In this document: positions 30-33,034 of the stretch, piece by piece
Layout: each line of letters begins with the position of its first letter
Position numbering within the stretch: position 1 is the first letter of the stretch
Assembly: GCA_022566415.1 (NCBI GenBank)
Contig: JADFIY010000008.1
Location: forward strand, 1 to 33,188
DNA length: 33,188 nt
Origin: Acidobacteriota bacterium
Lineage (GTDB): Bacteria > Actinomycetota > Acidimicrobiia > Spongiisociales > UBA5794
Direction: 5' to 3'
Made by a program: the position numbers and the translations under genes
The notes under the pieces: model-generated
Seen by the model: the letters and a program-made list of their open reading frames with translations, nothing else
Database searches by the model: none
What the model was told of the DNA's origin: nothing

Positions 30-938
30 TTACTGTCCCTTAAATGCTCGAAGTATATCGTTATACGTTACAAATATTATCAGGGTAAATAAAAGTACCA
101 TCCCCACTTGTTGAGCAATTCCACGCACTTTGACAGACAGAGGCGAACCCTTTATTTTTTCTATAGCCAGAAATACCAGATGTCCGCCGTCAAGAATCGG
201 AATGGGCAAAAGATTCAAAATGGCCAGGTTGACGTTGATCAGCACAAGGATGTAAAGAAACCACCTGATGTCGTTTAAGGCCGTCTTGTAAAGGACGTCG
301 AAAATACCCACGGGTCCGCTCAATTTGTCCAGACCGATATCCGAATGGCGGCTGAAAAGTGCGCCCAAAACATTTACGGTCATTACCACGACATCGTAGA
401 CTTGATTTAATGGGTTGATGTACTCGAGCCATAATTTTCTCTCGATAACTAAACCGAAACTTGGTGTCGTATCCCCTTCGGTGGTGATTACAACACTTTC
501 CGGTTTCATAGGAAATCCGATTTTCTCTCCGTCGCGTTCAATCGTTACCTCGATTAACTTTTCGGGATACTTTTCGAGGTAACGGGAAATTGCGTAGGAC
601 GTATATATGGCCGCTCCGTCCAATGCCAGGATTCTATCGCCAGAGAGCAGGCCGGCGCGAGCGGCGGGGGAATTTTCATAGAGGCGGTCTATTACCATCT
701 GTTCGGCTGGAATTACGCCGATTTTGCGCAATTTATCTGCGCCGGAAAGCAGCGGGATGATCTCGATGTCCAAAACCTGGTTGTCGCGCTCGACCTTGAG
801 TATCGTTTGCGGTTTTCCGTCAGGTGTGCGGCCTGATCCGGTGACAAGCGCTTGCTGCAAGTCGGTCCAGAATCTGATAGGGTTGCCGTCGATTTGCAAA
901 ACGCGGTCTCCGGCCAATAGACTCGACTGGAGAGCAGG
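30..938 (-). CDS. RseP-type site-2 protease, C-terminal part only (chimeric with nrdJ)
   Basis: This is the C-terminal ~303 codons of an intramembrane zinc metalloprotease of the RseP/YaeL (M50) family. Two PDZ-like modules are visible, each with a GDR[VI]L-[QA]-[IL]DG motif. They are followed by a membrane helix, a GPVGIF segment, and the family's C-terminal metal-site motif LLPIPILDGGHL with a last membrane helix. The N-terminal HExxH helix is absent because the reading frame runs straight into ribonucleotide reductase sequence. Base composition is much lower in GC and richer in A/T-ending codons than anything else in the window. RseP cleaves anti-sigma or signal-peptide substrates in the membrane, but this fragment could not do so without its catalytic His pair. 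It stops at a TAA. It probably derives from another organism through misassembly. Confidence 0.8.
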   Translation of the reverse strand, partial: PALQSSLLAGDRVLQIDGNPIRFWTDLQQALVTGSGRTPDGKPQTILKVERDNQVLDIEIIPLLSGADKLRKIGVIPAEQMVIDRLYENSPAARAGLLSGDRILALDGAAIYTSYAISRYLEKYPEKLIEVTIERDGEKIGFPMKPESVVITTEGDTTPSFGLVIERKLWLEYINPLNQVYDVVVMTVNVLGALFSRHSDIGLDKLSGPVGIFDVLYKTALNDIRWFLYILVLINVNLAILNLLPIPILDGGHLVFLAIEKIKGSPLSVKVRGIAQQVGMVLLFTLIIFVTYNDILRAFKGQ

Positions 939-1463
939 GGACTCGACGTTCTCGCCTGTCTCCGGATCCACGAACCAGAAACCTTGCGCCGTACCCTCGA
1001 TGCCGTACTGATGGTGGAGCCCGGTGTTGAACCACTGCGGCGAGTTCGGTGCCGCCATCTGGTGCAGAAGCATGTAGGCGATCTCGTCCTCGAATGCCTT
1101 GGCATCGTCCGCCCCGGCGAAGTACCCGTGCTGCTCTCCCCACCAGCGCCACGTGGTCGCCAGCCGATTGATGACCTGACGCGCCGAGGTCTCCGGACCG
1201 ACCACCGGGTTTCCTTCATCGTCGACAATGGGCTCACCATCTTCGTCGAGGTGGGGAACGCCCGCCTTGCGGAAGTACTTGGAGACCATGATGTCGCCGG
1301 CGACCTGTGACCAAGCAGCGGGAATCTCGGCATCCTCCATCTCGAAGACCACCGATCCGTCCGGGTTGGTAATCCGGGAGTCCCTTGTCAGCCACTCGAC
1401 GTTTTGGTAAGGGTCCTCGCCGGCATTCGTAAACCGGCGCTCGATCTGCAACCCCTTGTTCAT
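939..1463 (-). CDS. nrdJ: Adenosylcobalamin-dependent ribonucleotide reductase (class II), N-terminal fragment
   Basis: These are the first ~175 residues of a vitamin B12-dependent ribonucleoside-diphosphate reductase, which makes deoxyribonucleotides independently of oxygen. Recognisable parts are the GSVVFEMEDAEIPAAWSQVA opening, the WWGEQHGYF region, and the MAAPNSPQWFNTG block with a following VDPETGE strand; all are typical of actinobacterial NrdJ. The start is the ATG at 1463, preceded by GGGAGG at good spacing; an upstream GTG at 1505 is less likely because it lies within the leader. The real protein is usually over 900 residues, so the active site, including the cysteines, is missing. 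The frame continues into an RseP-like fragment at about 936-945. Its control region is intact: promoter, two NrdR boxes and a DnaA box. Confidence 0.88.
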
Positions 1464-1495
1464 CGGTCCTCCCTCGGCCGGGGCTTCGCCCGGTG

Positions 1496-1504
1496 TTATC
1501 CACA
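1496..1504 (+). promoter_or_regulatory. Perfect DnaA box in the nrdJ leader
   Basis: TTATCCACA, the consensus DnaA 9-mer, lies 32 bases upstream of the nrdJ start codon and downstream of the NrdR boxes. DnaA is known to control ribonucleotide reductase genes such as E. coli nrdAB; applying this to nrdJ here is inference. Confidence 0.5.
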
Positions 1505-1517
1505 CAATTACCCACCA

Positions 1518-8238: not shown

Positions 8239-8322
8239 GAGTCACGAGTCGCAAGTCACAAGTCGCAAGTTCCGAGTTATCCGGTGGCCGGTTGCCGGTG
8301 GCCGAGTTTCCAGTTCCCAACT
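8237..8322. repeat. Heptad repeat tract B
   Basis: It starts inside the TGA stop of the Clp1-like gene: GAGAGTC, ACGAGTC, GCAAGTC, ACAAGTC, GCAAGTT, CCGAGTT. A two-base slip follows, then CCGGTGG, CCGGTTG, CCGGTGG, CCGAGTT, TCCAGTT, CCCAACT. Every unit is 7 bp. Confidence 0.92.
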
Positions 8323-14620: not shown

Positions 14621-14740
14621 GTGAGTCGCGAGTCGCGAATCGCGAGTCGCGAGACAACGAGTCGCAAGTCGCAAGTCGCAAGCCGCACGTCGCACGTCGC
14701 ACGTCGCACGTCGCACGTCGCACGTCGCACGTCGCACGTC
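14621..14740. repeat. Heptad repeat tract D
   Basis: GTGAGTC, GCGAGTC, GCGAATC, GCGAGTC, GCGAGAC, one 8-base unit, GCAAGTC x2, GCAAGCC, then GCACGTC eight times without error (14685-14740). It is the cleanest and most homogeneous tract, pointing to recent expansion. Confidence 0.95.
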
Positions 14741-23290: not shown

Positions 23291-23306
23291 GGTAATGTGT
23301 CCGACG

Positions 23307-23930
23307 ATGGCAAACATCCCACCTGCGACCGTCGCCAGGCTTCCCCTATACCTGCGGAGTCTCGCCTCGCTCCCGTCCGACCGGCCGACCTGTTCATCGG
23401 AAGAGCTCGCCCAGATCGCAGGGGTACAGTCGGCTCAAGTGCGCAAGGACCTCTCCCTGGTCGGGCTTCGGGGTGTGCGCGGCGTCGGCTACGACATCGA
23501 CGGGCTCCGCCTCCAGCTCACCAGGCTCCTCGGGCTCGACCACGAGGTTCGAGTCGTCATCGTGGGTGCCGGCAATCTGGGAAGGGCCCTCGCCGATTTC
23601 GCCGGCTTCCGTGAGTGGGGGTTCACCATCGTGGGTCTCGTCGACAACGATCCCGCCAAGATCGGCACCACGGTGGCGGGCGTACCCGTCAACGCCCTGT
23701 CCGACCTCGATCGCGTCGTCGGCGACGGCGAGGTGTCTATCGGCATCATCGCCACCCCACCCGGCGCCGCCCAGGACGTTGCACAGCGGCTTGCCGATAC
23801 CGGGATCCGCTCCATCCTCAACTTCGCCCCGACCGTGTTGCGTGTCGATGGAATCGAGGTGCGCCGTGTGGACCTGTCATCCGAGTTGCAGATCCTGGCC
23901 CACCACCTCCACGGACCAGGTGCACTCTGA
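23307..23930 (+). CDS. rex: Redox-sensing transcriptional repressor Rex
   Basis: A 207-residue NADH/NAD+ sensor. The winged-helix N-terminus is IPPATVARLPLYLRSLASL, then SSEELAQIAGVQSAQVRKDLS and the wing GLRGVRGVGYDI. The Rossmann NAD-binding motif is VVIVGAGNLGRALADF. IGIIATPPGAAQDVAQRL, SILNFAPTVLRV and the C-terminal VDLSSELQILAHH domain-swap helix complete the family pattern. Rex normally represses fermentation and respiratory genes when NADH is low. The ATG at 23307 is used; an ATG at 23295 is also possible. The neighbouring respiratory genes are plausible targets, but no TTGTGAA-N4-TTCACAA operator was found in the window. Confidence 0.92.
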   Translation: MANIPPATVARLPLYLRSLASLPSDRPTCSSEELAQIAGVQSAQVRKDLSLVGLRGVRGVGYDIDGLRLQLTRLLGLDHEVRVVIVGAGNLGRALADFAGFREWGFTIVGLVDNDPAKIGTTVAGVPVNALSDLDRVVGDGEVSIGIIATPPGAAQDVAQRLADTGIRSILNFAPTVLRVDGIEVRRVDLSSELQILAHHLHGPGAL

Positions 23931-23948: not shown

Positions 23949-24422
23949 CTACTCGGCGACGTCTCGCTCGTAGCGGTCGAGGGCGAGGACGAACATGACG
24001 AAGAGGATGAACGCCGCGATGGCCATCGCGATGGCCGGTACCCGCACCTGCAGGGCGTTTAGGCCTTCGATATCCGCGGGGCGGATCCCGCGAGGCGCGT
24101 AGACGGTGAACAAGATCCCTCCGATTGTCAGCCAGCCAAAGGCAGCGGCGCCGACGACGAGGAACCCCAATCGGGATCCCAGGTTGGTGGATAGCACGAG
24201 CCAGATGGCACCGATGAAAGTGGCAACGGCCGCGATCGCAACGGTCACCCCCCGCATCATGACCGAGAAGTCGGTCAGCTCACCGGCGTCGTCGACCCGG
24301 TTGTAGACCCTGCCAACGAGTTCTTGCGCGGTCTCCCGCACGAACGGGATCATGGCAAGCAGAATCGCGAGCAGACCGAGTAACGCCAGCCACTCGAGCC
24401 TGCTCGCTCCACGTTGGTTCAT
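23949..24422 (-). CDS. Four-helix membrane protein of the bc operon
   Basis: A 157-residue protein with four hydrophobic segments: about 10-27, 57-78, 84-108 and 131-150. There is a soluble loop with RVDDAGELTDF after the first, and a cytoplasmic tail DRYERDVAE. No cofactor motif is visible and no family was recognised. Its ATG overlaps the stop of the cytochrome c gene (TGATG), so it is the last gene of the bc-type operon and probably an accessory or assembly subunit. Confidence 0.68.
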   Translation of the reverse strand: MNQRGASRLEWLALLGLLAILLAMIPFVRETAQELVGRVYNRVDDAGELTDFSVMMRGVTVAIAAVATFIGAIWLVLSTNLGSRLGFLVVGAAAFGWLTIGGILFTVYAPRGIRPADIEGLNALQVRVPAIAMAIAAFILFVMFVLALDRYERDVAE

Positions 24423-26044
24423 CACAACGTCCTCTCGTACAGGGCGATCAGCAAGATGTCATCCGCAGTCAGCGAGGCTCCCCAACCCGGCATTCGTCCA
24501 GTGCCGATCCCGTTGACACCGTAATTCGCCGCACTTGCCGATCCCTCGATGACGAACTCGACATGATCTTCGAGGGCCGGGAACTGCACGAGGGTGCGCC
24601 CGTCGTTGATGGCTGGTGCCCAGGCGCCCCGACCGGGGCCGACCTCGAACGTCGAACCGGCGCTGTAACCACCGGTGTGGCACCGGGCGCAAGTGCTGTT
24701 GAACAACCCGACGGCCCGGGTGGCGTCCTCCACGGAAACCGGCGCACCGGCCCGTTCACTCATGGCGGCAGCAACCTCGTCGAAGTCGACGGACCACGGC
24801 ATCAGCTCGGCGGACTGGTTCAGGAATTCGAGGCCCTCGAGCAATGGCTCGAGAAAGTCATCCTCCTTGTCCGCCTTGATTTGGATGAGCAGCAGGTCGC
24901 CCTTGAGAGCTTCAAGCATCCGTTCGGCAGCGTCGAGGTCCGGGATCGGGATGCCGGCGTCGTCGGTGTTGGTAAAGGCGTTTGTCGGATCGAAGGCAAT
25001 TTCGTATGCCTGTTGCTGGATGCGGTTCGCAGTTCCGTCGGCGTTGAACGCCAGCTCGGTGAGCTGCTCGTAGGAGATGTCGGCGATTTCGGTCAGACGC
25101 GGCTCGATGCCATCGGTGAGCCCATCGCGATCGGTGTCGAGGCCGGGCTCGTCGCAGGTGGTGAGGGCGAGCTTCGCCGACTCCGGTGTGCAGGTGCCTG
25201 CTCCTCCCATCAGGTCGAGCATCTCGTCGGTGAGGCCGCCGGTGACCTCGATGATGGCCTTGGCGTCGGTGACGTCGTCGATCCGTGCCTGCTGACGGTT
25301 GATGCGCACCTGGGTGGCTGTTTCTCCGGTCTCGACCCGCAGCACCGCCGCGGTTACCCGTTTGTCGGTCTTGGCAACGACATCAGCCTGCGGAATCTGC
25401 CTGGAGCGGATGTAGGCGATCACCTGATCTATCTCCTGCGATGTCATCGCGCCGCCCCCGAGGAGGCCGTTCGCCGGCATCGGGGTGCCCCGGCGCCCGT
25501 ACTCGACCACGAACTCGACCTCGCTCTCGTCGAATCGGTACAGCACGTCGTTGAGGGACGGCACCAACCAGGCCGACTCCACCCCGCTGCGTGGCTCGAC
25601 AAACTGGAAGACTCCGCCACCAAGGTCTTCGCCGTGGCATTCGAAGCACTCGAACTGATGGAACCACCTGTCGCCCTCGTCGATGTCGAGCTCGCTGAGC
25701 GTTTCGATCGCATCCGCCTGGCGATTGGCTTCGTTGAACGCGTACCACGGCAGCAAGATGGCCATGCCGGCTGCGGCGATCACCGCTGCCCGCAGCACTC
25801 TGGTGGTGTGCACGTTCTCCAACTCGTCGTCGGACATATACGGCGTCTGATTCAGCGGCAGACGCTCGCCGGTCGCAGACCGAGACCGGCGGCTGTTGAC
25901 GAACAGGTATGCCAACCAGGCGAGAAGTGCCACCATCACGAGGATGAGGACAACCGCCCCGATGCCGAAGCCGCCGCCCGTCGACGTAACTTCCGGTTGA
26001 GCCGCGGCGAAGACGATGAGGCGTGAGTTCAGCGCCTCAGACAC
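24422..26044 (-). CDS. Membrane-anchored cytochrome c with two CxxCH sites
   Basis: A 540-residue protein. Two membrane segments (about 26-49 and 86-102) precede the first heme site C133-F-E-C-H137. A region of about 290 residues with a calcium-loop-like DTDRDGLTDGIE follows, then the second heme site C452-A-R-C-H456 with RMPGWG as a candidate Met ligand. It would carry electrons out of the Rieske/cytochrome b complex. GTG start; it overlaps the end of the Rieske gene by 8 bases. The large spacer between the two heme domains is unusual for a bc-complex cytochrome and may bind a partner. Confidence 0.85.
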   Translation of the reverse strand: MSEALNSRLIVFAAAQPEVTSTGGGFGIGAVVLILVMVALLAWLAYLFVNSRRSRSATGERLPLNQTPYMSDDELENVHTTRVLRAAVIAAAGMAILLPWYAFNEANRQADAIETLSELDIDEGDRWFHQFECFECHGEDLGGGVFQFVEPRSGVESAWLVPSLNDVLYRFDESEVEFVVEYGRRGTPMPANGLLGGGAMTSQEIDQVIAYIRSRQIPQADVVAKTDKRVTAAVLRVETGETATQVRINRQQARIDDVTDAKAIIEVTGGLTDEMLDLMGGAGTCTPESAKLALTTCDEPGLDTDRDGLTDGIEPRLTEIADISYEQLTELAFNADGTANRIQQQAYEIAFDPTNAFTNTDDAGIPIPDLDAAERMLEALKGDLLLIQIKADKEDDFLEPLLEGLEFLNQSAELMPWSVDFDEVAAAMSERAGAPVSVEDATRAVGLFNSTCARCHTGGYSAGSTFEVGPGRGAWAPAINDGRTLVQFPALEDHVEFVIEGSASAANYGVNGIGTGRMPGWGASLTADDILLIALYERTL

Positions 26045-26900
26045 AGAACGGGCCCTGCGGGTATTGCGCCGTCTTGTTCTTGGAACGAGCGGTCTCGACG
26101 ATCACTCCGGTCTGGATGATGAGGTCGCCGGCGTCGTTCACTTCGACTCCGAATCGGTCGAGGTTCCTCGGGGCCGGTCCTGCTTCATATTCCCCGTGGA
26201 TGTTGTACTTGGAGCCGTGGCAGGGGCACTCGAAGCCCTGCGATGGAACGCAGCTCGGCACCCGGCAACCAAGATGGACACACTTCTGCCACAAGGCCAT
26301 GACGCCGACGCCGTCGGCTTCGCCACCGGCAATGACGAACGGGGTGTTTTCGAACGAGGACCCTTCGAGCTGGTCGAGATCGAAGGTGACGAGCCAGGAT
26401 TGGGCGGACGCCCTGAACAGCGGGACGACGGCGCCGGCGACGCTGATCTCTCTCTTGATCTCCTCGAGGTTGCCGACGTTGACCGGTGAACCGAACCCAC
26501 CCCTCAGCTTCGGCCAGATGAAGGCAAGGGAGGCGAGCGCAAACTGGAGAAGGAACAATCCGAACACGGCGAGGAGCGCCCGGTTGAAGAACTGCCGTCT
26601 GGTGACGTTGTATTCAGCGACGGTGACTTCGATTTGATCGGTGAGCGGGTCGGCCGTTGCCTCCGGTGGCGCCTCGACGACGGTGGCAACGGCAGCAACC
26701 GTGACTTCGTCGTCGGCGGCCTGTTGCTCGGCCTTCATGGCTCGCGACGCCTCGTCGGCCTGTCTCGCCTTGACGTCGAGCTCTTCGACGGTAACCGGCC
26801 CTGCCGAAGGGTCGCGCCTGAAGGCGACCGCGAAGATCCCGAGCACGGCGAGCGCTCCGGTGATGAGGATGCCGATGATGAAGATGCTTGTTGCGTCCAT
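26037..26900 (-). CDS. qcrA: Rieske iron-sulfur protein of a cytochrome bc complex
   Basis: A 287-residue protein. One N-terminal helix (5-27), a charged and Ala/Glu-rich linker, then a second helix after TRRQFFNRA (about 106-130), as in actinobacterial QcrA with extra helices. The [2Fe-2S] motifs are CVHLGC and CPCHGSKY, with two further cysteines (PSC) nearby for the disulfide. It transfers electrons from menaquinol to cytochrome c. ATG start, three bases after the subunit IV stop, and it overlaps the cytochrome c gene. Gene order b, IV, Rieske, c matches bc complexes of the actinobacterial/Chloroflexi type. Confidence 0.92.
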   Translation of the reverse strand: MDATSIFIIGILITGALAVLGIFAVAFRRDPSAGPVTVEELDVKARQADEASRAMKAEQQAADDEVTVAAVATVVEAPPEATADPLTDQIEVTVAEYNVTRRQFFNRALLAVFGLFLLQFALASLAFIWPKLRGGFGSPVNVGNLEEIKREISVAGAVVPLFRASAQSWLVTFDLDQLEGSSFENTPFVIAGGEADGVGVMALWQKCVHLGCRVPSCVPSQGFECPCHGSKYNIHGEYEAGPAPRNLDRFGVEVNDAGDLIIQTGVIVETARSKNKTAQYPQGPFCV

Positions 26901-26903
26901 GTC

Positions 26904-27830
26904 CTAGTCGAGAATCGTCAATAGGTCGTCGAAGAAAATGCCGTCTCGCCATGGGAACACGAAGTTGAACCCGGGTCCCCTGAAGAAGGAGCCGAAGATG
27001 GTGAGGATCGCCGCCGCGACAATGAAGAAGGTGAAGATCATGATGGCCAGCTTGCGGTCGGAGGGCCGGATCGACGGGTTTCGGTCCACATAGGGGATGA
27101 ACATCAGCGCGATCAGGCCGAACGTTGGGATGAACACTCCTGCCACCATCGGGTCGAAGTAGGCCAGCAGCTCCTGAAGCCCGAGGAAGTACCACGGCGC
27201 CTTGGACGGGTTCGGCTGCTCATTGAAGTTGGCGAACTCGAGGAGCGGTGCGTCGACGAAGATCGAAACAGCAGTCAGGACCACCAGGATCACAAGCAAC
27301 GCCACAAACTCGATCGCCAGCAGATGTGGCCAGACGCTCACCTTGTCCGTCGGTTCCCGCTTGACCTGCTGGATCGCTCCCGCTTTGACGACGGTGAGCA
27401 GGCGCTGGGTGCGAACTCCCTCGGGAACCGCGGGGGCGGGAGCGGGGGCTGTGGTGGTCGGCGGCGGGGCGGTGGCAACCGCGGTTCCCCCACCGGCAGG
27501 GGTGGCGATGGTCGGGTCTGGTAGCCCGTCGTGCTTGGCCCTTGCCCGCGTCGCGCGCAGCAATATTGCCTCCGGCACCCCGGTCTCTACAGACAAGGCA
27601 GCGACGTCGATGCCGCCGTTACCTGATGCAACCGGCGGCGCTGCCGGTGCGGTCTCGGGAGGGGCAGGGGCAGGAGCTGGTTCGGTTTCCGCAGGAGCCG
27701 GTTCGGCCGGCGACGATGCTGCAGGAGCTTCCCCGGTCATCTCGGCGAGTACCTCTTCGACCGGGCGACCTTCCGCCTTCGCTCTGGCCTCTGCCGAGCG
27801 CCGCAGGATGTCTTCTGGGATGTCGGCCAC
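26904..27830 (-). CDS. Cytochrome b/b6 subunit IV with N-terminal repeated helical motif
   Basis: A 308-residue protein. The C-terminal ~160 residues are subunit-IV-like (PetD/C-terminal cytochrome b): WPHLLAIEFVALLV, NPSKAPWYFLGLQELLAYFDP with the Qo-site-like region, and two more helices. The N-terminal ~150 residues are an Ala/Pro-rich extension carrying two copies of a short helical motif: IPEDILRRSAEARAKAEGR (from residue 4) and VPEAILLRATRARAKHDG (from about residue 82). The same motif occurs twice in the CcoP-like protein at 31760. GTG start with GGAGGAG overlapping the cytochrome b stop, a tight operon arrangement. The extension is probably a docking arm. Confidence 0.88.
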   Translation of the reverse strand: MADIPEDILRRSAEARAKAEGRPVEEVLAEMTGEAPAASSPAEPAPAETEPAPAPAPPETAPAAPPVASGNGGIDVAALSVETGVPEAILLRATRARAKHDGLPDPTIATPAGGGTAVATAPPPTTTAPAPAPAVPEGVRTQRLLTVVKAGAIQQVKREPTDKVSVWPHLLAIEFVALLVILVVLTAVSIFVDAPLLEFANFNEQPNPSKAPWYFLGLQELLAYFDPMVAGVFIPTFGLIALMFIPYVDRNPSIRPSDRKLAIMIFTFFIVAAAILTIFGSFFRGPGFNFVFPWRDGIFFDDLLTILD

Positions 27831-27840
27831 GGGCTCCTCC

Positions 27841-28617
27841 TTAGAGCGGACCGGATACGCCGCCGTCTTTACGCACCCGCCAGAAGTGCACGGACATGAA
27901 CAGCACGATGATGAACGGGAGGAACAACACGTGGAGCACATACCACCGCAGCAGCGTGTCCGCTGAGATCTGCACCCCCCCGATCAGAGCGAAACTGACG
28001 CTATCTCCGAACACCGGCGCATACGACCCCATCGTCGAACCGACGGTGAAGGCCCACAGCGCCAGCTGATCCCACGGGAGTAGGTAGCCGCTGAACGACA
28101 GCAGCAGCGTCAGCAGCAACAGGATGACGCCGACGACCCAGTTGAACTCCCGAGGTGGCTTGTAGGCGCCGTGATAGAACACTCGCGTCATGTGGAGGAA
28201 CACAGTCAGCACCATGAGGTGCGCTCCCCACCGATGCATGTTGCGCACGAACTGGCCGAAGGCGACGTCTGTAGCAAGCGCCTGGATGTCGATGTACGCC
28301 TGGGGCGACGTTGGCCGGTAGTAGAACATGAGGAAGATCCCGGTGATGGTCAGCACCACGAACAGGAAGAACGACAGGCCCCCGAGGCACAGGGTGTAGG
28401 ACAGGCGGACCCCATGCCGCTTCACCTTGACCGGGTGCAGGTGGTACATCACGTTGTTCATCACCACGTAGGAGCGGTTCCTCGGTGTGTCCGAGTACCC
28501 ACCTCGAAACGGTGAGCCGGGCCGGAAGATCGAGGTCCACACCTGGCTGGAGCGAAACTGCTCGGACAAATCGTTGAGCAGCCCGGTGATCCCTCCGTTG
28601 CCGTTACCTTCCGCCAC
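27841..28617 (-). CDS. Cytochrome b6-type subunit of the bc complex
   Basis: A 258-residue protein with four helices and the two heme-b His pairs: [20 protein letters not shown] in helix B/C and [25 protein letters not shown] in helix [14 protein letters not shown] is the Qo-site loop. It is the short b6 form, with the C-terminal half encoded by the next gene. GTG start with GAGGGA nearby. The N-terminal ~50 residues ([20 protein letters not shown]) are a soluble extension. Confidence 0.92.
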
Positions 28618-28650: not shown

Positions 28651-29097
28651 TCAAGTCCGCAATCCGTACGCGTACCCGTTCTTGAAGTCTCGTTGCCCGG
28701 TATCCAATTCCCATGGTGCGTTGGTGAATTCGACCGCATTCTCGGCGAGCGAGCCGGCGAACTTACCGAGGCTGATCACCCCGGTCGGGCAGCGGTCGAC
28801 GCACAAGGCGCACCGGGTGCATTCGTCCTCGTCGACGATGAACACGCCTTGGTTCTCTGCGTCGTCGGCCGGGTTGTCGACGTTCGCTGCCTCGGCGATC
28901 ACGTCGACGGACAGGTAGTGGATGCACTTCCATGGGCAAATGTCGACGCAGCCCTCGCAGAGGATGCATTCGGCCTCATCGATGTGCAGGAACTGCTTTG
29001 GTTTCACCGCCGCGGTCAGGTAGTCCCCTTCGACGGCGGCGAGCTGATAATCGTCGCGCATCGGCGGTATCTCGAACCAAACATCACTCTTCGCCAT
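28651..29097 (-). CDS. 2[4Fe-4S] ferredoxin-type protein of the bc operon
   Basis: A 148-residue soluble protein with two cluster motifs, CILCEGCVDICPWKC and CTRCALCVDRCPTG, separated by about 35 residues. This is the spacing of a 2[4Fe-4S] ferredoxin with an insert. A 35-residue N-terminal arm and a 35-residue C-terminal tail lie outside the fold. It sits between a membrane protein and cytochrome b in the same operon (TGATG overlap upstream), suggesting that it feeds or taps electrons at the bc complex. Ferredoxins are not standard bc-complex subunits. Confidence 0.9.
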   Translation of the reverse strand: MAKSDVWFEIPPMRDDYQLAAVEGDYLTAAVKPKQFLHIDEAECILCEGCVDICPWKCIHYLSVDVIAEAANVDNPADDAENQGVFIVDEDECTRCALCVDRCPTGVISLGKFAGSLAENAVEFTNAPWELDTGQRDFKNGYAYGLRT

Positions 29098-29681
29098 CAG
29101 TCCTCCACGCGGATGGGTCGGCCGTATTCGGAGATTCGCTGCGGCTTCGGCTGGTCCTTCTTCTTGTCATAGTTCTGCCAGAGGACCATGGCGGCGGCCA
29201 CCACGATCAGGGTCGTGAACGCGTACCCGCCGACGACCATGTCCTTGAACGTCTCGTAGGTGATCGTGAGCTCATTGCCGAGCACGAGGACGGGCGGGAT
29301 GGTGAGGAGGGTCCTCGCCGATGTCCACTCCAGCGGACCTTGCGCCAGCGTCAGCATCTGATTGGGGATGACGCCGAACACGATGATCATGAGAGCGGTG
29401 AACAGGCCGGCACCCAGGGTCGCCGTCACCCAGGTCAGCGGGCGATCGTAGACAAAGGCCAACGTGGCCCCAGCCATGGCAAGCAGCACCCCGCCCAGCG
29501 CGATGTTCTGGGCGATCGTTACCCATAACCAGCCGCGTGGGACCAGCGAGTACACCTCGGCTCCGAGGTCGTCCAGCACCGGCGCCTCGGTGGCATGCAC
29601 GAGCCATGAGCCGACGATGACGGTGACTAGGCCAATCGCAATCGCGGCCAAACCGATGCCGAGCTTCACTCGATCGCTCAG
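29097..29681 (-). CDS. First gene of the bc operon: four-helix membrane protein
   Basis: A 194-residue protein with four hydrophobic segments (about 9-27, 52-76, 84-106 and 155-174 from the CTG) and a Lys-rich cytoplasmic tail ending in SEYGRPIRVED. Not recognised. The start is debatable. A GTG at 29669 has no ribosome site at good distance, while a CTG at 29681, four codons earlier, has AGGAGGAGG five bases upstream and gives MSDRVKLG; I use the CTG. The stop overlaps the ferredoxin start. As the leading gene with a ferredoxin next, it may anchor that protein to the complex. Confidence 0.7.
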   Translation of the reverse strand: MSDRVKLGIGLAAIAIGLVTVIVGSWLVHATEAPVLDDLGAEVYSLVPRGWLWVTIAQNIALGGVLLAMAGATLAFVYDRPLTWVTATLGAGLFTALMIIVFGVIPNQMLTLAQGPLEWTSARTLLTIPPVLVLGNELTITYETFKDMVVGGYAFTTLIVVAAAMVLWQNYDKKKDQPKPQRISEYGRPIRVED

Positions 29682-29812: not shown

Positions 29813-31756
29813 GTGGAGGGCAGCGGGCACGTGACCGCGGACATCGACGCTGGAGAGAGCGCAACCGGGTCGATGGATTCCGGTGAAGACGGCGCAGGTG
29901 GTCGCGTCGTCGGAGCCCACCTGACGCTGGCGATCCTGTTCTTCATCGTCGCCATCATCGGGGCGACCATCGCCGCCTACCAGCTCGCCGTTCCCGGGTC
30001 CCTCGACGGCATCGCCTTCCTGTCCTATGGCCGGCTCACCCCGATCGTGACCAGCCTGTTCCTGTACGGATGGTTGACCCTCGGCTTCCTCGCCGCCGTG
30101 CATCACGTACTCCCTCGCGTCGCCGGACGGCCGCTGGTCGCCACGATCACGGCGCACCTCTCGATGGCGCTCATCGCTATCGGCGTGGTGGTCGGCTCGA
30201 TCGGCATCGCCTTCGGCCAGAGCGAGGGCCGCCCCTACCTCGAGATGCCGCTCTACGCCGACGCCCTCATCATCGTCGGGTTGGCCCTCGCTGCGTTCGT
30301 GGCGACGAGGAACGTGGCGCCAAGCAGAGAACATATGGTTCCTGCTCAGTGGTACATGCTCGCTGCTACGTGGTGGGCGGTGCTCGCCGTCCTGATCGGC
30401 AACGTGCCAGGAGTCACCGGATTCGCCGGTGCCATGCAAACCGGATTTTTCCGGGCTGCCATAACAGGCTTCTGGTTTGCCGCAGCCGGAATCGGGCTCA
30501 TCTACTACCTCATTCCCCGCATCGTCGGCACCCCCGGCCCGATGCGGGCATCGTCGTTATCCGCCCTTGGGTTCTGGTCGCTCGCCGTGGTGTGGGCATC
30601 CACGGGTCCTGTCATGTTCATCTACGGCCCAGGGCCCGGCTGGTACGAGACCGTTGGCGTCGCCTTCTCGATTGGCCTGCTCGTTCCGGTGCTGATCATC
30701 GTGGCCGACTTCTTTGTTGCTATGCGCGGCCAGTGGCTCCACGTCACCGAGCGGGGGCTCCTCTCCTTCATCCTTCTCGGTGCTTTCCTCTTCGTGCTCA
30801 TCCCGGTACAGAACCTCACCCAAGCACTGCGCACGTCGAGTGCCGCCGTCCAATTCACCGAGTGGGTACCCGCCGCCGATACCCTCGCCTACGTTGGCGC
30901 TTTTTCGCTGTGGCTGTTCGCGCTCGCCTACGACATCAAGGGACCCGGTGCCGCCGGCACCGAGAGAGCAACCTGGCATCTGCGATTGTCGCTGGTCGGG
31001 CTGTTCATCATTCTTGCTGCGATGTGGATGGGCGGCGCCGTCACCGGATTCACCTGGGCGGCCGGGGCCAATTCGGGGGAGTTCACCTCGTTCGGTGACG
31101 GATGGGCGCAAGTCGACAACGCCCTTGCTCCGTATCTCAGCATCCGGGCTATCGGTACCGGTTTCTTTGCCTTTGCGCAGATCCTCCTCCTTTCCGTCGT
31201 CATCGGGCGCTCTAGGAAGGACGCCCCGCTTGCGGTGACCGAGGTCCCGCCGCTCGATCTGGATATCGCGGGCGAGCCCGGGTCGCCGTCGTGGATATCG
31301 TTGCGATTCGGTGTGGTGGCGCTGTTCTTCTTGGCCCTCGTGTTGACGGTGCTGCTCCCCTCCTTCGACCCCGAGGTGGATAACGGTACGGTCCTCGGCG
31401 ACCGTGATCGGGTGTACCCCGAGGGCTCTACGGTTGCCGCGGGGCGCGCCGTCTACATCCAGGAAGGGTGTTATTACTGCCACACCCAGGAGGTGCGGCC
31501 GATCATTACCGATGTCGGGCTGGGCCAGGTGAGCCGGGCCGGCGACTATGTCCACGAGACGCCGGCGCTCCCAGGTGTGGAGCGTCTCGGGCCCGATCTC
31601 ATGCACGTCGCCGGCCGCTACTCCAACGCCGGCGTGCTGAAGTCCCGGCTCATTGATCCTCGCGGATCGCGCTCGTGGTCGATCATGCCGTCGTACGAGC
31701 GGTTGTCCGACGAGGATCTTGATGCCCTGACCACTTATCTGATGTCGCTGAGGTAG
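29813..31756 (+). CDS. CcoN-CcoO fusion with a ligand-less CcoN half
   Basis: A 647-residue protein. The first ~485 residues align helix for helix with cbb3 oxidase subunit I (GRLTPIVTS, MQTGFFRAAITGFWF, IYYLIPR, WASTGPVMFIYGPGPGW, VQFTEWVPAAD), but every canonical His is gone. The low-spin heme position is V79. The CuB positions are A215, V267 and M268. The heme b3/b pair is A355 and T357. The last ~110 residues are CcoO-like with a c-heme site C553-YY-C-H557, then EVRPI, GPDL and VAGRYSN, and MPSYE as Met ligand. So it should carry one c heme but no oxygen-reducing centre. GTG start at 29813; a GTG at 29831 with GGAGGG is an alternative. The CcoP-like gene follows after 3 bases. Confidence 0.87.
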   Translation: MEGSGHVTADIDAGESATGSMDSGEDGAGGRVVGAHLTLAILFFIVAIIGATIAAYQLAVPGSLDGIAFLSYGRLTPIVTSLFLYGWLTLGFLAAVHHVLPRVAGRPLVATITAHLSMALIAIGVVVGSIGIAFGQSEGRPYLEMPLYADALIIVGLALAAFVATRNVAPSREHMVPAQWYMLAATWWAVLAVLIGNVPGVTGFAGAMQTGFFRAAITGFWFAAAGIGLIYYLIPRIVGTPGPMRASSLSALGFWSLAVVWASTGPVMFIYGPGPGWYETVGVAFSIGLLVPVLIIVADFFVAMRGQWLHVTERGLLSFILLGAFLFVLIPVQNLTQALRTSSAAVQFTEWVPAADTLAYVGAFSLWLFALAYDIKGPGAAGTERATWHLRLSLVGLFIILAAMWMGGAVTGFTWAAGANSGEFTSFGDGWAQVDNALAPYLSIRAIGTGFFAFAQILLLSVVIGRSRKDAPLAVTEVPPLDLDIAGEPGSPSWISLRFGVVALFFLALVLTVLLPSFDPEVDNGTVLGDRDRVYPEGSTVAAGRAVYIQEGCYYCHTQEVRPIITDVGLGQVSRAGDYVHETPALPGVERLGPDLMHVAGRYSNAGVLKSRLIDPRGSRSWSIMPSYERLSDEDLDALTTYLMSLR

Positions 31757-31759
31757 TCG

Positions 31760-32857
31760 ATGGCCGAATCATTCGACGAACTCGAATCCAGCATCGGCGT
31801 ACCCGCTGATCTCCTGCAACGCGCCGCCGCCGCCAGGGCAGAGGCAGACGGTAGGACGACGGAGGCGATCATCGCCGAGTGGTCGGGCGGAGAACCTCCT
31901 GTCGCGGCGCCTGCACCGGCCGCAGGCGGAGAGACCGAACCGACCGCGGATGCGGCCGGATTGCCGTCGGCCGAGTCGTTGATCGGCGAGGCGCTGGTGA
32001 CGGCGGCCGCCGAAGCCAAAGGGATCCCTGCGTCGTTGACGGAACGATCTGCCAGGGCGCGGGCTGAGGCAGACGGCGTTTCGGTGGAACAGGTCATGCG
32101 GGACTGGGTTGTGGAGGCCGGGTTGGCGACGGCCGAAGTTGCCGCAGCTGCGCCGGCTCCAACGACGCCGGAGCCGGCGGCGACCCCAGCTGTGGCTCCG
32201 GCATCGCCCGCCGCAGCAACCCCCGCAGTGGAAGAGCCCGCCGCGCCGGCTGTCGAAGTGCTGCCACCGACGGTGCCGGTCGATGAGGCAGCCGACGAGG
32301 AGGAAGTGGAGCAGCGCATCAGTCGATACCCAGCCTGGCTGGCGGCGGTGCTGGTTGTAATTCCGCTGCTGGCGGCGCTGTACGTCGTTGTGGTTCCGAA
32401 CCAGCCGATTTGCGGAAGCGCCGGTCAGCTCGCCGTCGATCCGGCAACTGGGCTCGCCGCCAACTGTGACGGGTCGGCGTTCGGCGAGCACGAGGCCAGC
32501 AACGTCCGGTTCGGCGCCGAGATCTTCGCGGCCTCCTGTGCCGTCTGTCACGGCGCCACGGGGGCCGGCGGGGCAGGCCCAGCGTTGGCCGGCGGCGCCG
32601 TGCTCGAGACCTTTCTCGAAGGTGCGTGCCAGTCGCACATCGAGTGGGTGACGCTGGGCTCTGCCGGCTGGCCCGATGCAACCTACGGGGCGCAGAACAA
32701 GCCGGTCGCCGGCGGAATGCCTTCGTTTGGGCGCCTCACCGAGACCGAGTTGGCCCAGGTGGTGCTGTACGAACGGGTTGCGCTCGGTGGCGAGGACGAG
32801 GAAGCTGCCGAAGAAGAATGCGGATTCGCCGAAGAGGGCGAAGCCGCCACAGGCTGA
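31760..32857 (+). CDS. CcoP-like membrane cytochrome c with repeated N-terminal helical motif
   Basis: A 365-residue protein. The N-terminal ~180 residues are Ala/Pro/Glu-rich and contain two copies of the helical motif also seen in subunit IV: VPADLLQRAAAARAEADGR (from residue 14) and IPASLTERSARARAEADG (from about residue 91). A single membrane helix (about 191-211) follows, then one cytochrome c domain with C260-AV-C-H264, and GGMPSFGRLTETELAQVVLY as the Met-ligand and C-terminal helix. An acidic tail ends the protein. It pairs with the ccoNO fusion, three bases upstream. The stop is followed at once by heptad tract H. Confidence 0.87.
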   Translation: MAESFDELESSIGVPADLLQRAAAARAEADGRTTEAIIAEWSGGEPPVAAPAPAAGGETEPTADAAGLPSAESLIGEALVTAAAEAKGIPASLTERSARARAEADGVSVEQVMRDWVVEAGLATAEVAAAAPAPTTPEPAATPAVAPASPAAATPAVEEPAAPAVEVLPPTVPVDEAADEEEVEQRISRYPAWLAAVLVVIPLLAALYVVVVPNQPICGSAGQLAVDPATGLAANCDGSAFGEHEASNVRFGAEIFAASCAVCHGATGAGGAGPALAGGAVLETFLEGACQSHIEWVTLGSAGWPDATYGAQNKPVAGGMPSFGRLTETELAQVVLYERVALGGEDEEAAEEECGFAEEGEAATG

Positions 32858-32858
32858 T

Positions 32859-33034
32859 CGCAAGTCGCAAGTCGCAAGTCGCAAGTCGCAAGTCGCAAGT
32901 CCCAAGTCGCAAGTCCCAAGTCGCAAGGGATCAGTGACCCAAGCCCGGTAACTGGGAACTGGAAACGAACTGGGTTTCCGGCCACCGGCCACTCGGAAGT
33001 GGGGACTGGGAACTGGCAACTCTGCACACCGAGA
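32859..33034. repeat. Heptad repeat tract H
   Basis: Starting two bases after the stop codon: CGCAAGT six times, CCCAAGT, CGCAAGT, CCCAAGT, CGCAAGG, unbroken (32859-32928). Further on come AACTGGG, AACTGGA (32950-32963), a CCGGCCA pair and GGACTGG/GAACTGG units, the same unit types as tracts B, C and F. Confidence 0.94.

Follow-up and report, generated by a model that had tools for sequence, protein, structure and literature searches.

A conserved CcoN-like protein that lacks the metal ligands of cbb3 oxidase is a candidate membrane scaffold between complex III and an aa3-type oxidase

Annotation of heme-copper oxidases rests on homology to subunit I, and a ccoN gene is taken as a sign of high-affinity oxygen respiration. 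What is to be made, then, of a ccoN homolog whose product has none of the histidines that hold the metals? One such gene lies at positions 29813-31756 (+ strand) of the window, by which we mean the whole stretch of 33,188 nucleotides that was analysed, and the question is whether its product could still be an oxidase, and if not, what such a protein may be for.

The gene is an intact open reading frame encoding a CcoN-CcoO fusion of 647 amino acids (a GTG a few codons downstream of 29813 may be the true start). Pfam and NCBIfam searches, alignment to 3mk7 and an AlphaFold2 model divide it into a CcoN part, approximately residues 30-465, and a monoheme CcoO part, approximately residues 490-647. 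Pfam assigns the N-terminal part to COX1 (3.5e-26) and the C-terminal part to FixO (6.6e-23), while the top NCBIfam model is the CcoN/CcoO fusion PRK14485 (2e-56, with a score far under the model cut-off), and the CcoN half aligns with cbb3 subunit I over its full length. In the cbb3 oxidase, residues H60, H207, H257, H258, H345 and H347 are the ligands of low-spin heme b, heme b3 and CuB, and Tyr251 is the active-site tyrosine. A HMMER alignment to the reference CcoN of P. stutzeri (3mk7_A) places V79, A215, V267, M268, A355 and T357 of the window protein at the six ligand positions, in that order, and a tryptophan at the position of Tyr251. With zero of the six histidines, and with no tyrosine at the active site, the protein lacks the residues expected of a cbb3 oxygen reductase and also those of a NorB-type nitric oxide reductase, the positions homologous to the histidines for heme b, heme b3 and FeB being empty. 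The CcoO half, recognizable by its FixO match and its heme site CYYCH, is that of a monoheme CcoO and also retains its Met motif. The original prediction, made from the letters of the sequence, had claimed this kinship of the N-terminal half to cbb3 subunit I, the same six substitutions, and the heme site and Met motif of the CcoO half, and all of these are borne out. A structure prediction agrees: the AlphaFold2 model of the fusion, built from an alignment of 23 relatives (pLDDT 81, pTM 0.88), has as its closest PDB matches by Foldseek the CcoN chains of cbb3 oxidases (3mk7/9g83), with TM-scores of 0.84-0.86 normalised to the target. Because the predicted fold matches CcoN and the ligand positions are substituted, the subunit I fold is, according to the model, retained in the window CcoN and the metal sites are lost.

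This loss is no peculiarity of a single genome. Within the family, 38 of 50 genomes carry the gene, representing 19 of 20 genera, and matches are found in 115 of 138 genomes of the order and in 92 of 296 genomes of the class sample. The search for the same six-site loss covered 128 distinct CcoN-like proteins from the class, of which 125 lack all six histidines and the other three keep a single one, and the active-site tyrosine is kept in none of 127. Two architectures occur in the class, the fused CcoNO and separate CcoN and CcoO proteins, and the unfused CcoN is equally ligandless; the fusion stressed by the original prediction is thus incidental, and is ruled out as the key feature. The dN/dS ratio of the CcoN half is about 0.09 between the window protein and that of a congener, and about 0.12 for another congeneric pair, so by this measure the CcoN-like family is under purifying selection. 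The original prediction had taken the ligandless CcoN to be conserved, which it is, and had named two findings that would have undone its reading: other histidines at the heme sites, and relatives with restored ligands that mark this copy as a decayed gene. No replacement histidine emerged: only the histidine of the CcoO heme c is invariant in a 23-row family alignment, and within the CcoN half there is no alignment column in which a majority of the class rows have a histidine. Ligandless relatives occur also in other classes of the same phylum and true six-histidine CcoN in still others; the intact relatives form separate lineages.

Some genomes of the class deserve mention on their own account. 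Five loci (L098-L102) from genomes of about 1 Mb, probably marine and Actinomarina-like, retain the module, its ligandless CcoN having diverged strongly. One genome (G034) has two ligandless modules (L013 and L279), and so has another (G127), with one fused copy of the type of another family (L053 and L103 being the two loci) and one split copy, which suggests either transfer or a binning error.

The neighborhood of the gene is conserved as well. The next gene (31760-32857, +), a conserved neighbor that the original prediction called a CcoP-like cytochrome, does encode a membrane-anchored, CcoP-like cytochrome c (Pfam Cytochrom_C, 3e-09), with two 32-residue repeats at its N-terminus and a single CxxCH motif (CAVCH) where the CcoP of cbb3 is diheme; it scores far below the ccoP cut-off. 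On the opposite strand, beginning about 140 bases upstream of the fusion gene, is an operon with cytochrome b, a Rieske protein and a c-type cytochrome, the components of a cytochrome b/Rieske complex of the bc1/b6f type. Its first gene (29097-29669, -) encodes a conserved membrane protein of 190 residues and four helices; it is followed by a two-[4Fe-4S] ferredoxin-like subunit (28651-29097, -; Fer4 6.4e-12, two cluster motifs), a b6-like N-terminal half of cytochrome b (27841-28617, -; Cytochrome_B 3.2e-46), a C-terminal half of cytochrome b (26904-27941, -; Cytochrom_B_C 2.7e-07) whose N-terminal extension bears two 32-residue repeats and whose true start is probably near 27841, a Rieske [2Fe-2S] protein (26037-26900, -; Rieske 6e-08, b6f-type Rieske model 2.7e-16), a membrane-anchored diheme cytochrome c identified by its motifs CFECH and CARCH (24422-26044, -), and, at the end of the operon, a membrane protein of 158 residues conserved in this position (23949-24425, -). 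Next comes a Rex-like redox-sensing repressor (23295-23930, +), assigned from the Pfam domains Put_DNA-bind_N and CoA_binding and from synteny, and adjacent to the operon in most loci that extend that far. The CcoN(-O)-CcoO-CcoP genes diverge from the bc operon in the loci of the class that were examined, including those from genomes of about 1 Mb, with a few kb inserted between the CcoN-side genes and the bc operon at two loci (L093 and L094). Five genomes have an orthologous cytochrome b and no CcoN-like gene beside it, an absence explained by contig ends, as the contig stops at that point in all five. The 190-residue protein, whose gene opens the bc operon in every case, belongs to no known family: no Pfam family scores above cut-off, and a good model (pLDDT 90), compared with the PDB for a fold match to a known heme or quinone protein, found none.

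The two gene sets are also joined by the 32-residue repeat, whose consensus is GIPEDLLRRSAEARAKAEGVPVEEVLAEWAGG. In a whole-genome search its copies in the CcoP-like protein are at 31796-31891 (+, E 2.0e-16) and 32021-32113 (+, E 2.9e-16), and those in the C-terminal-half protein of cytochrome b at 27729-27824 (-, E 6.4e-18) and 27489-27581 (-, E 5.2e-14). These four are the only copies in the genome, the next match having an E value of 0.47; the repeat belongs to no Pfam family, and in related loci it is confined to cytochrome b (36 loci), CcoP-like (40) and CcoO (20) proteins. We looked for it in the aa3 locus, where it is absent. The usual topology of cytochrome b and CcoP subunits would put their N-termini on the cytoplasmic side, and because the N-termini that bear the repeat would share that side, the repeat may be read as a possible docking element joining the bc and CcoNOP gene sets.

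Three further observations concern the window as a piece of assembly. Tandem arrays of a heptamer of the CAAGTCG type stand at 1854-1882, 8245-8273, 14658-14735 and, just past the CcoP-like gene, 32861-32924; a 15-mer of the array has 24 matches against 0.08 expected, on both strands and mostly between genes or at gene ends. In a single open reading frame at 30-1505 (-), the start of a class II ribonucleotide reductase runs into a PDZ/M50 site-2 protease, and GC content drops to 0.42 in the first 300 bases; a contig misjoin is very likely. Another contig (L003) is 98% identical to that of the window.

If the window protein reduces no oxygen, some other oxidase should be expected in the host, and the original prediction had proposed to look for one. 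The genome has one other COX1, accompanied by COX2 and COX3, on a contig other than that of the module. More generally, among genomes of the order that are at least 90% complete, an aa3-type COX1 is present in 65 of 66 with a CcoN-like gene vs. four of 12 without (Fisher 1.8e-7), and for all 138 genomes of the order the counts are 102 of 115 vs. 10 of 23 (p 7e-6), kinship not being corrected for in either test. One genome (G048, 95% complete) has the module and no COX1 match. The COX2 of the window genome carries a cytochrome c domain of its own, and this, together with the location of the aa3 genes on another contig, makes the link to aa3 weaker here than in the Verrucomicrobiota.

There, a protein search of genome contigs found loci in which ActB-ActC-ActD-ActE-ActF (alternative complex III, or ACIII; Act names assigned from the sequences and the gene order), CcoN-CcoO-CcoP and COX1-COX3-COX2 occur in succession. 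ActBCDEF-CcoNOP loci that keep all six histidines have no adjacent COX1 (7 of 7). Two loci show partial ligand loss (HHQHFI and HHQQFI), and both have COX1-COX3-COX2 directly downstream; the remaining loci keep one, two or zero of the six. Altogether COX1-COX3-COX2 is downstream in 8 of 13 loci with partial or near-full loss vs. none of the seven intact ones (Fisher 0.015, kinship ignored), and five ligandless modules have no COX genes within the stretches analysed, which are of up to 19.5 kb. In all eight COX2 proteins of these loci the CuA motif is complete and heme c is absent, and CxxCH is kept in every CcoO and CcoP there, making the CcoO/CcoP hemes the obvious donors. Every verrucomicrobial genome tested that has a ligandless CcoN has an A-type COX1, and the only two genomes without an A-type COX1 are ones with a six-histidine CcoN. 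In a tree built from 57 CcoN parts after masking of the ligand columns, true CcoN sequences lie between the ligandless proteins of the actinobacteria and those of the Verrucomicrobiota, and a single clade of all ligandless rows is rejected (delta lnL 143.6, p-AU 7e-29), which rules out a single ancient loss. The ligands were therefore lost at least twice, each time in a module encoded with a quinol-oxidising complex; within the Verrucomicrobiota there may have been one loss or two (support 70/55).

One verrucomicrobial case involves a cultured methanotroph. The only CcoN match of Methylacidiphilum kamchatkense Kam1 (G762), whose genome also has PmoA-family genes, adjoins alternative complex III, with aa3 genes directly downstream, and has S, E, S, H, F and V at the ligand positions, so that five of the six ligands are lost. 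Two such ACIII-linked "cbb3 oxidase" genes of Methylacidiphilum lacking five of six ligands stand at L189 9063-10526 and L229 7775-9301, one being that of Kam1 and the other fitting SolV (G652). The Kam1 genome paper names the gene a cbb3 oxidase and invokes it for high oxygen affinity and low-oxygen growth (PMC6688271), the same annotation appears in a review, and a cbb3 type is one of the three terminal oxidases that a 2023 study attributes to these methanotrophs. The Kam1 sequence does not support an oxidase.

Taken with the ligand loss, the purifying selection, the linkage to complex III, the restricted repeat and the co-occurrence with aa3, all of them features of sequence and gene content, the recurrence of the loss leads us to a reading that we hold to be fairly likely: the window CcoNOP is a former cbb3 oxidase whose CcoN is kept as a metal-free scaffold for a c-heme relay from complex III to an aa3-type oxidase. 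The gene set at 29813-32857 would derive from a cbb3 (C-family) heme-copper oxidase, as a CcoNOP module in which subunit I, having lost the tyrosine and the residues that bind heme b, heme b3 and CuB, would be heme-free and retained in the membrane as a scaffold. The cytochrome b/Rieske complex encoded on the other strand would take electrons from quinol and send them through its diheme cytochrome c to the CcoO/CcoP hemes and on to the CuA center of a separate oxidase of the aa3 type, the dead CcoN keeping this relay within a complex III-IV assembly. Catalysis would have passed from a cbb3 oxidase encoded with complex III to an aa3 oxidase, and what preserved the module would be the bridge between complex III and the oxidase that its c-type cytochromes and their membrane anchor still provide. 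The direction and path of electron flow and the physical association are suggested by gene order and co-occurrence, and contact of the module with both complexes is pointed to indirectly by gene linkage and the shared repeat. The original prediction had proposed a scaffold that carries c hemes for another acceptor and is not an oxidase; ligand loss and purifying selection favor that, and its reading as a whole is supported in part, the bc operon on the opposite strand, the shared repeat, the tie to aa3 and the separate verrucomicrobial loss being what this analysis adds to it to give a mechanism.

It is unlikely, in our estimation, that the dead CcoN instead has a chemistry of its own, cofactor-free proton or ion conduction or quinone binding coupled to complex III in the manner proposed for NrfD-like proteins; proton or quinone chemistry was the second option raised by the original prediction. 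Such a role would account for the retained fold and for membrane-part residues invariant in the 23-row family alignment (e.g. E144, P146, W180, P199 and D299), and NrfD-like membrane subunits are described in PMC8076601 as interacting with quinones and having no redox cofactor. Against it, no histidine is conserved, the positions of the old pocket vary freely where a shared new site should be conserved, and the chemistry would have needed at least two origins. That the c hemes pass their electrons to an acceptor other than aa3, be it another reductase or something extracellular, seems to us rather unlikely: the COX2 of the window genome, with its fused cytochrome c, could accept electrons directly, and module and aa3 are unlinked in that genome, but the strong co-occurrence with aa3 and the direct operon linkage in the Verrucomicrobiota speak for aa3, and no other reductase family was noticed recurring beside the module. 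A bolder version of the scaffold reading, to which we give a small chance, would make dead oxidase subunits the obligate metal-free core of a repeatedly evolved supercomplex that adds a proton- or quinone-dependent energy-conserving step of its own. It is very improbable that heme or copper is still bound through other residues in an unusual but active oxidase or reductase; a few class rows do have isolated histidines near the old sites, but no alternative histidine is conserved, and the substitutes at the six sites differ between lineages (the H207 site being occupied by A, S, G, T or N), which argues against a new shared metal site. Decay of an oxidase gene or an assembly error, for which one might cite the probable misjoin at the other end of the window, is ruled out by conservation, with open frames in more than 100 genomes and dN/dS near 0.1.

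The c-heme scaffold that we favor has partial parallels among known systems. The cbb3 (C-family) CcoNOP oxidases share with the window module the fold and length of subunit I, the monoheme CcoO, the N-O-P gene order and even the fusion (as in PRK14485), and differ in having the six ligands and Tyr251, in the number of heme motifs in CcoP and in not being tied to complex III genes. The operons of verrucomicrobial methanotrophs and Opitutaceae that combine ACIII with a C-type oxidase (PMC6688271, PMC8498564) likewise set CcoNOP beside a quinol-oxidising complex, and the Methylacidiphilum copy is ligandless, as in the window; unlike the window module, they have been published as active high-affinity cbb3 oxidases, and the complex III of the window is a cytochrome b/Rieske complex beside which the loss was independent. 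Supercomplexes of complexes III and IV include bc1-cbb3 with cytochrome cy in R. capsulatus, ACIII-aa3 in F. johnsoniae and bc1-aa3 in mycobacteria (PMC8361435). They have a heme c relay between quinol oxidiser and oxidase, the role proposed for the window module, although their anchor is a single helix or a fused cytochrome rather than a dead oxidase subunit of about twelve helices. NrfD-like subunits are, like the window CcoN, cofactor-free membrane subunits that hold redox partners, and belong to a different family, the window protein being of heme-copper oxidase descent. We found no description of a ligandless CcoN in the literature searched, most subscription journals being outside its scope, so that the term "not described" is provisional.

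A large actinobacterial group and an independent group in the Verrucomicrobiota thus keep a ccoN gene without metal ligands, and Kam1 provides a concrete case of one published as a cbb3 oxidase with five of the six ligands gone. If the reading is true, published annotations that name a ligandless CcoN an oxidase would be wrong. The loci from intact through partly lost to fully lost ligands would show, as a natural series, how an oxidase turns into a scaffold after a second one has entered the operon, and this can be tested in cultured species, some of which have a ligandless CcoN.
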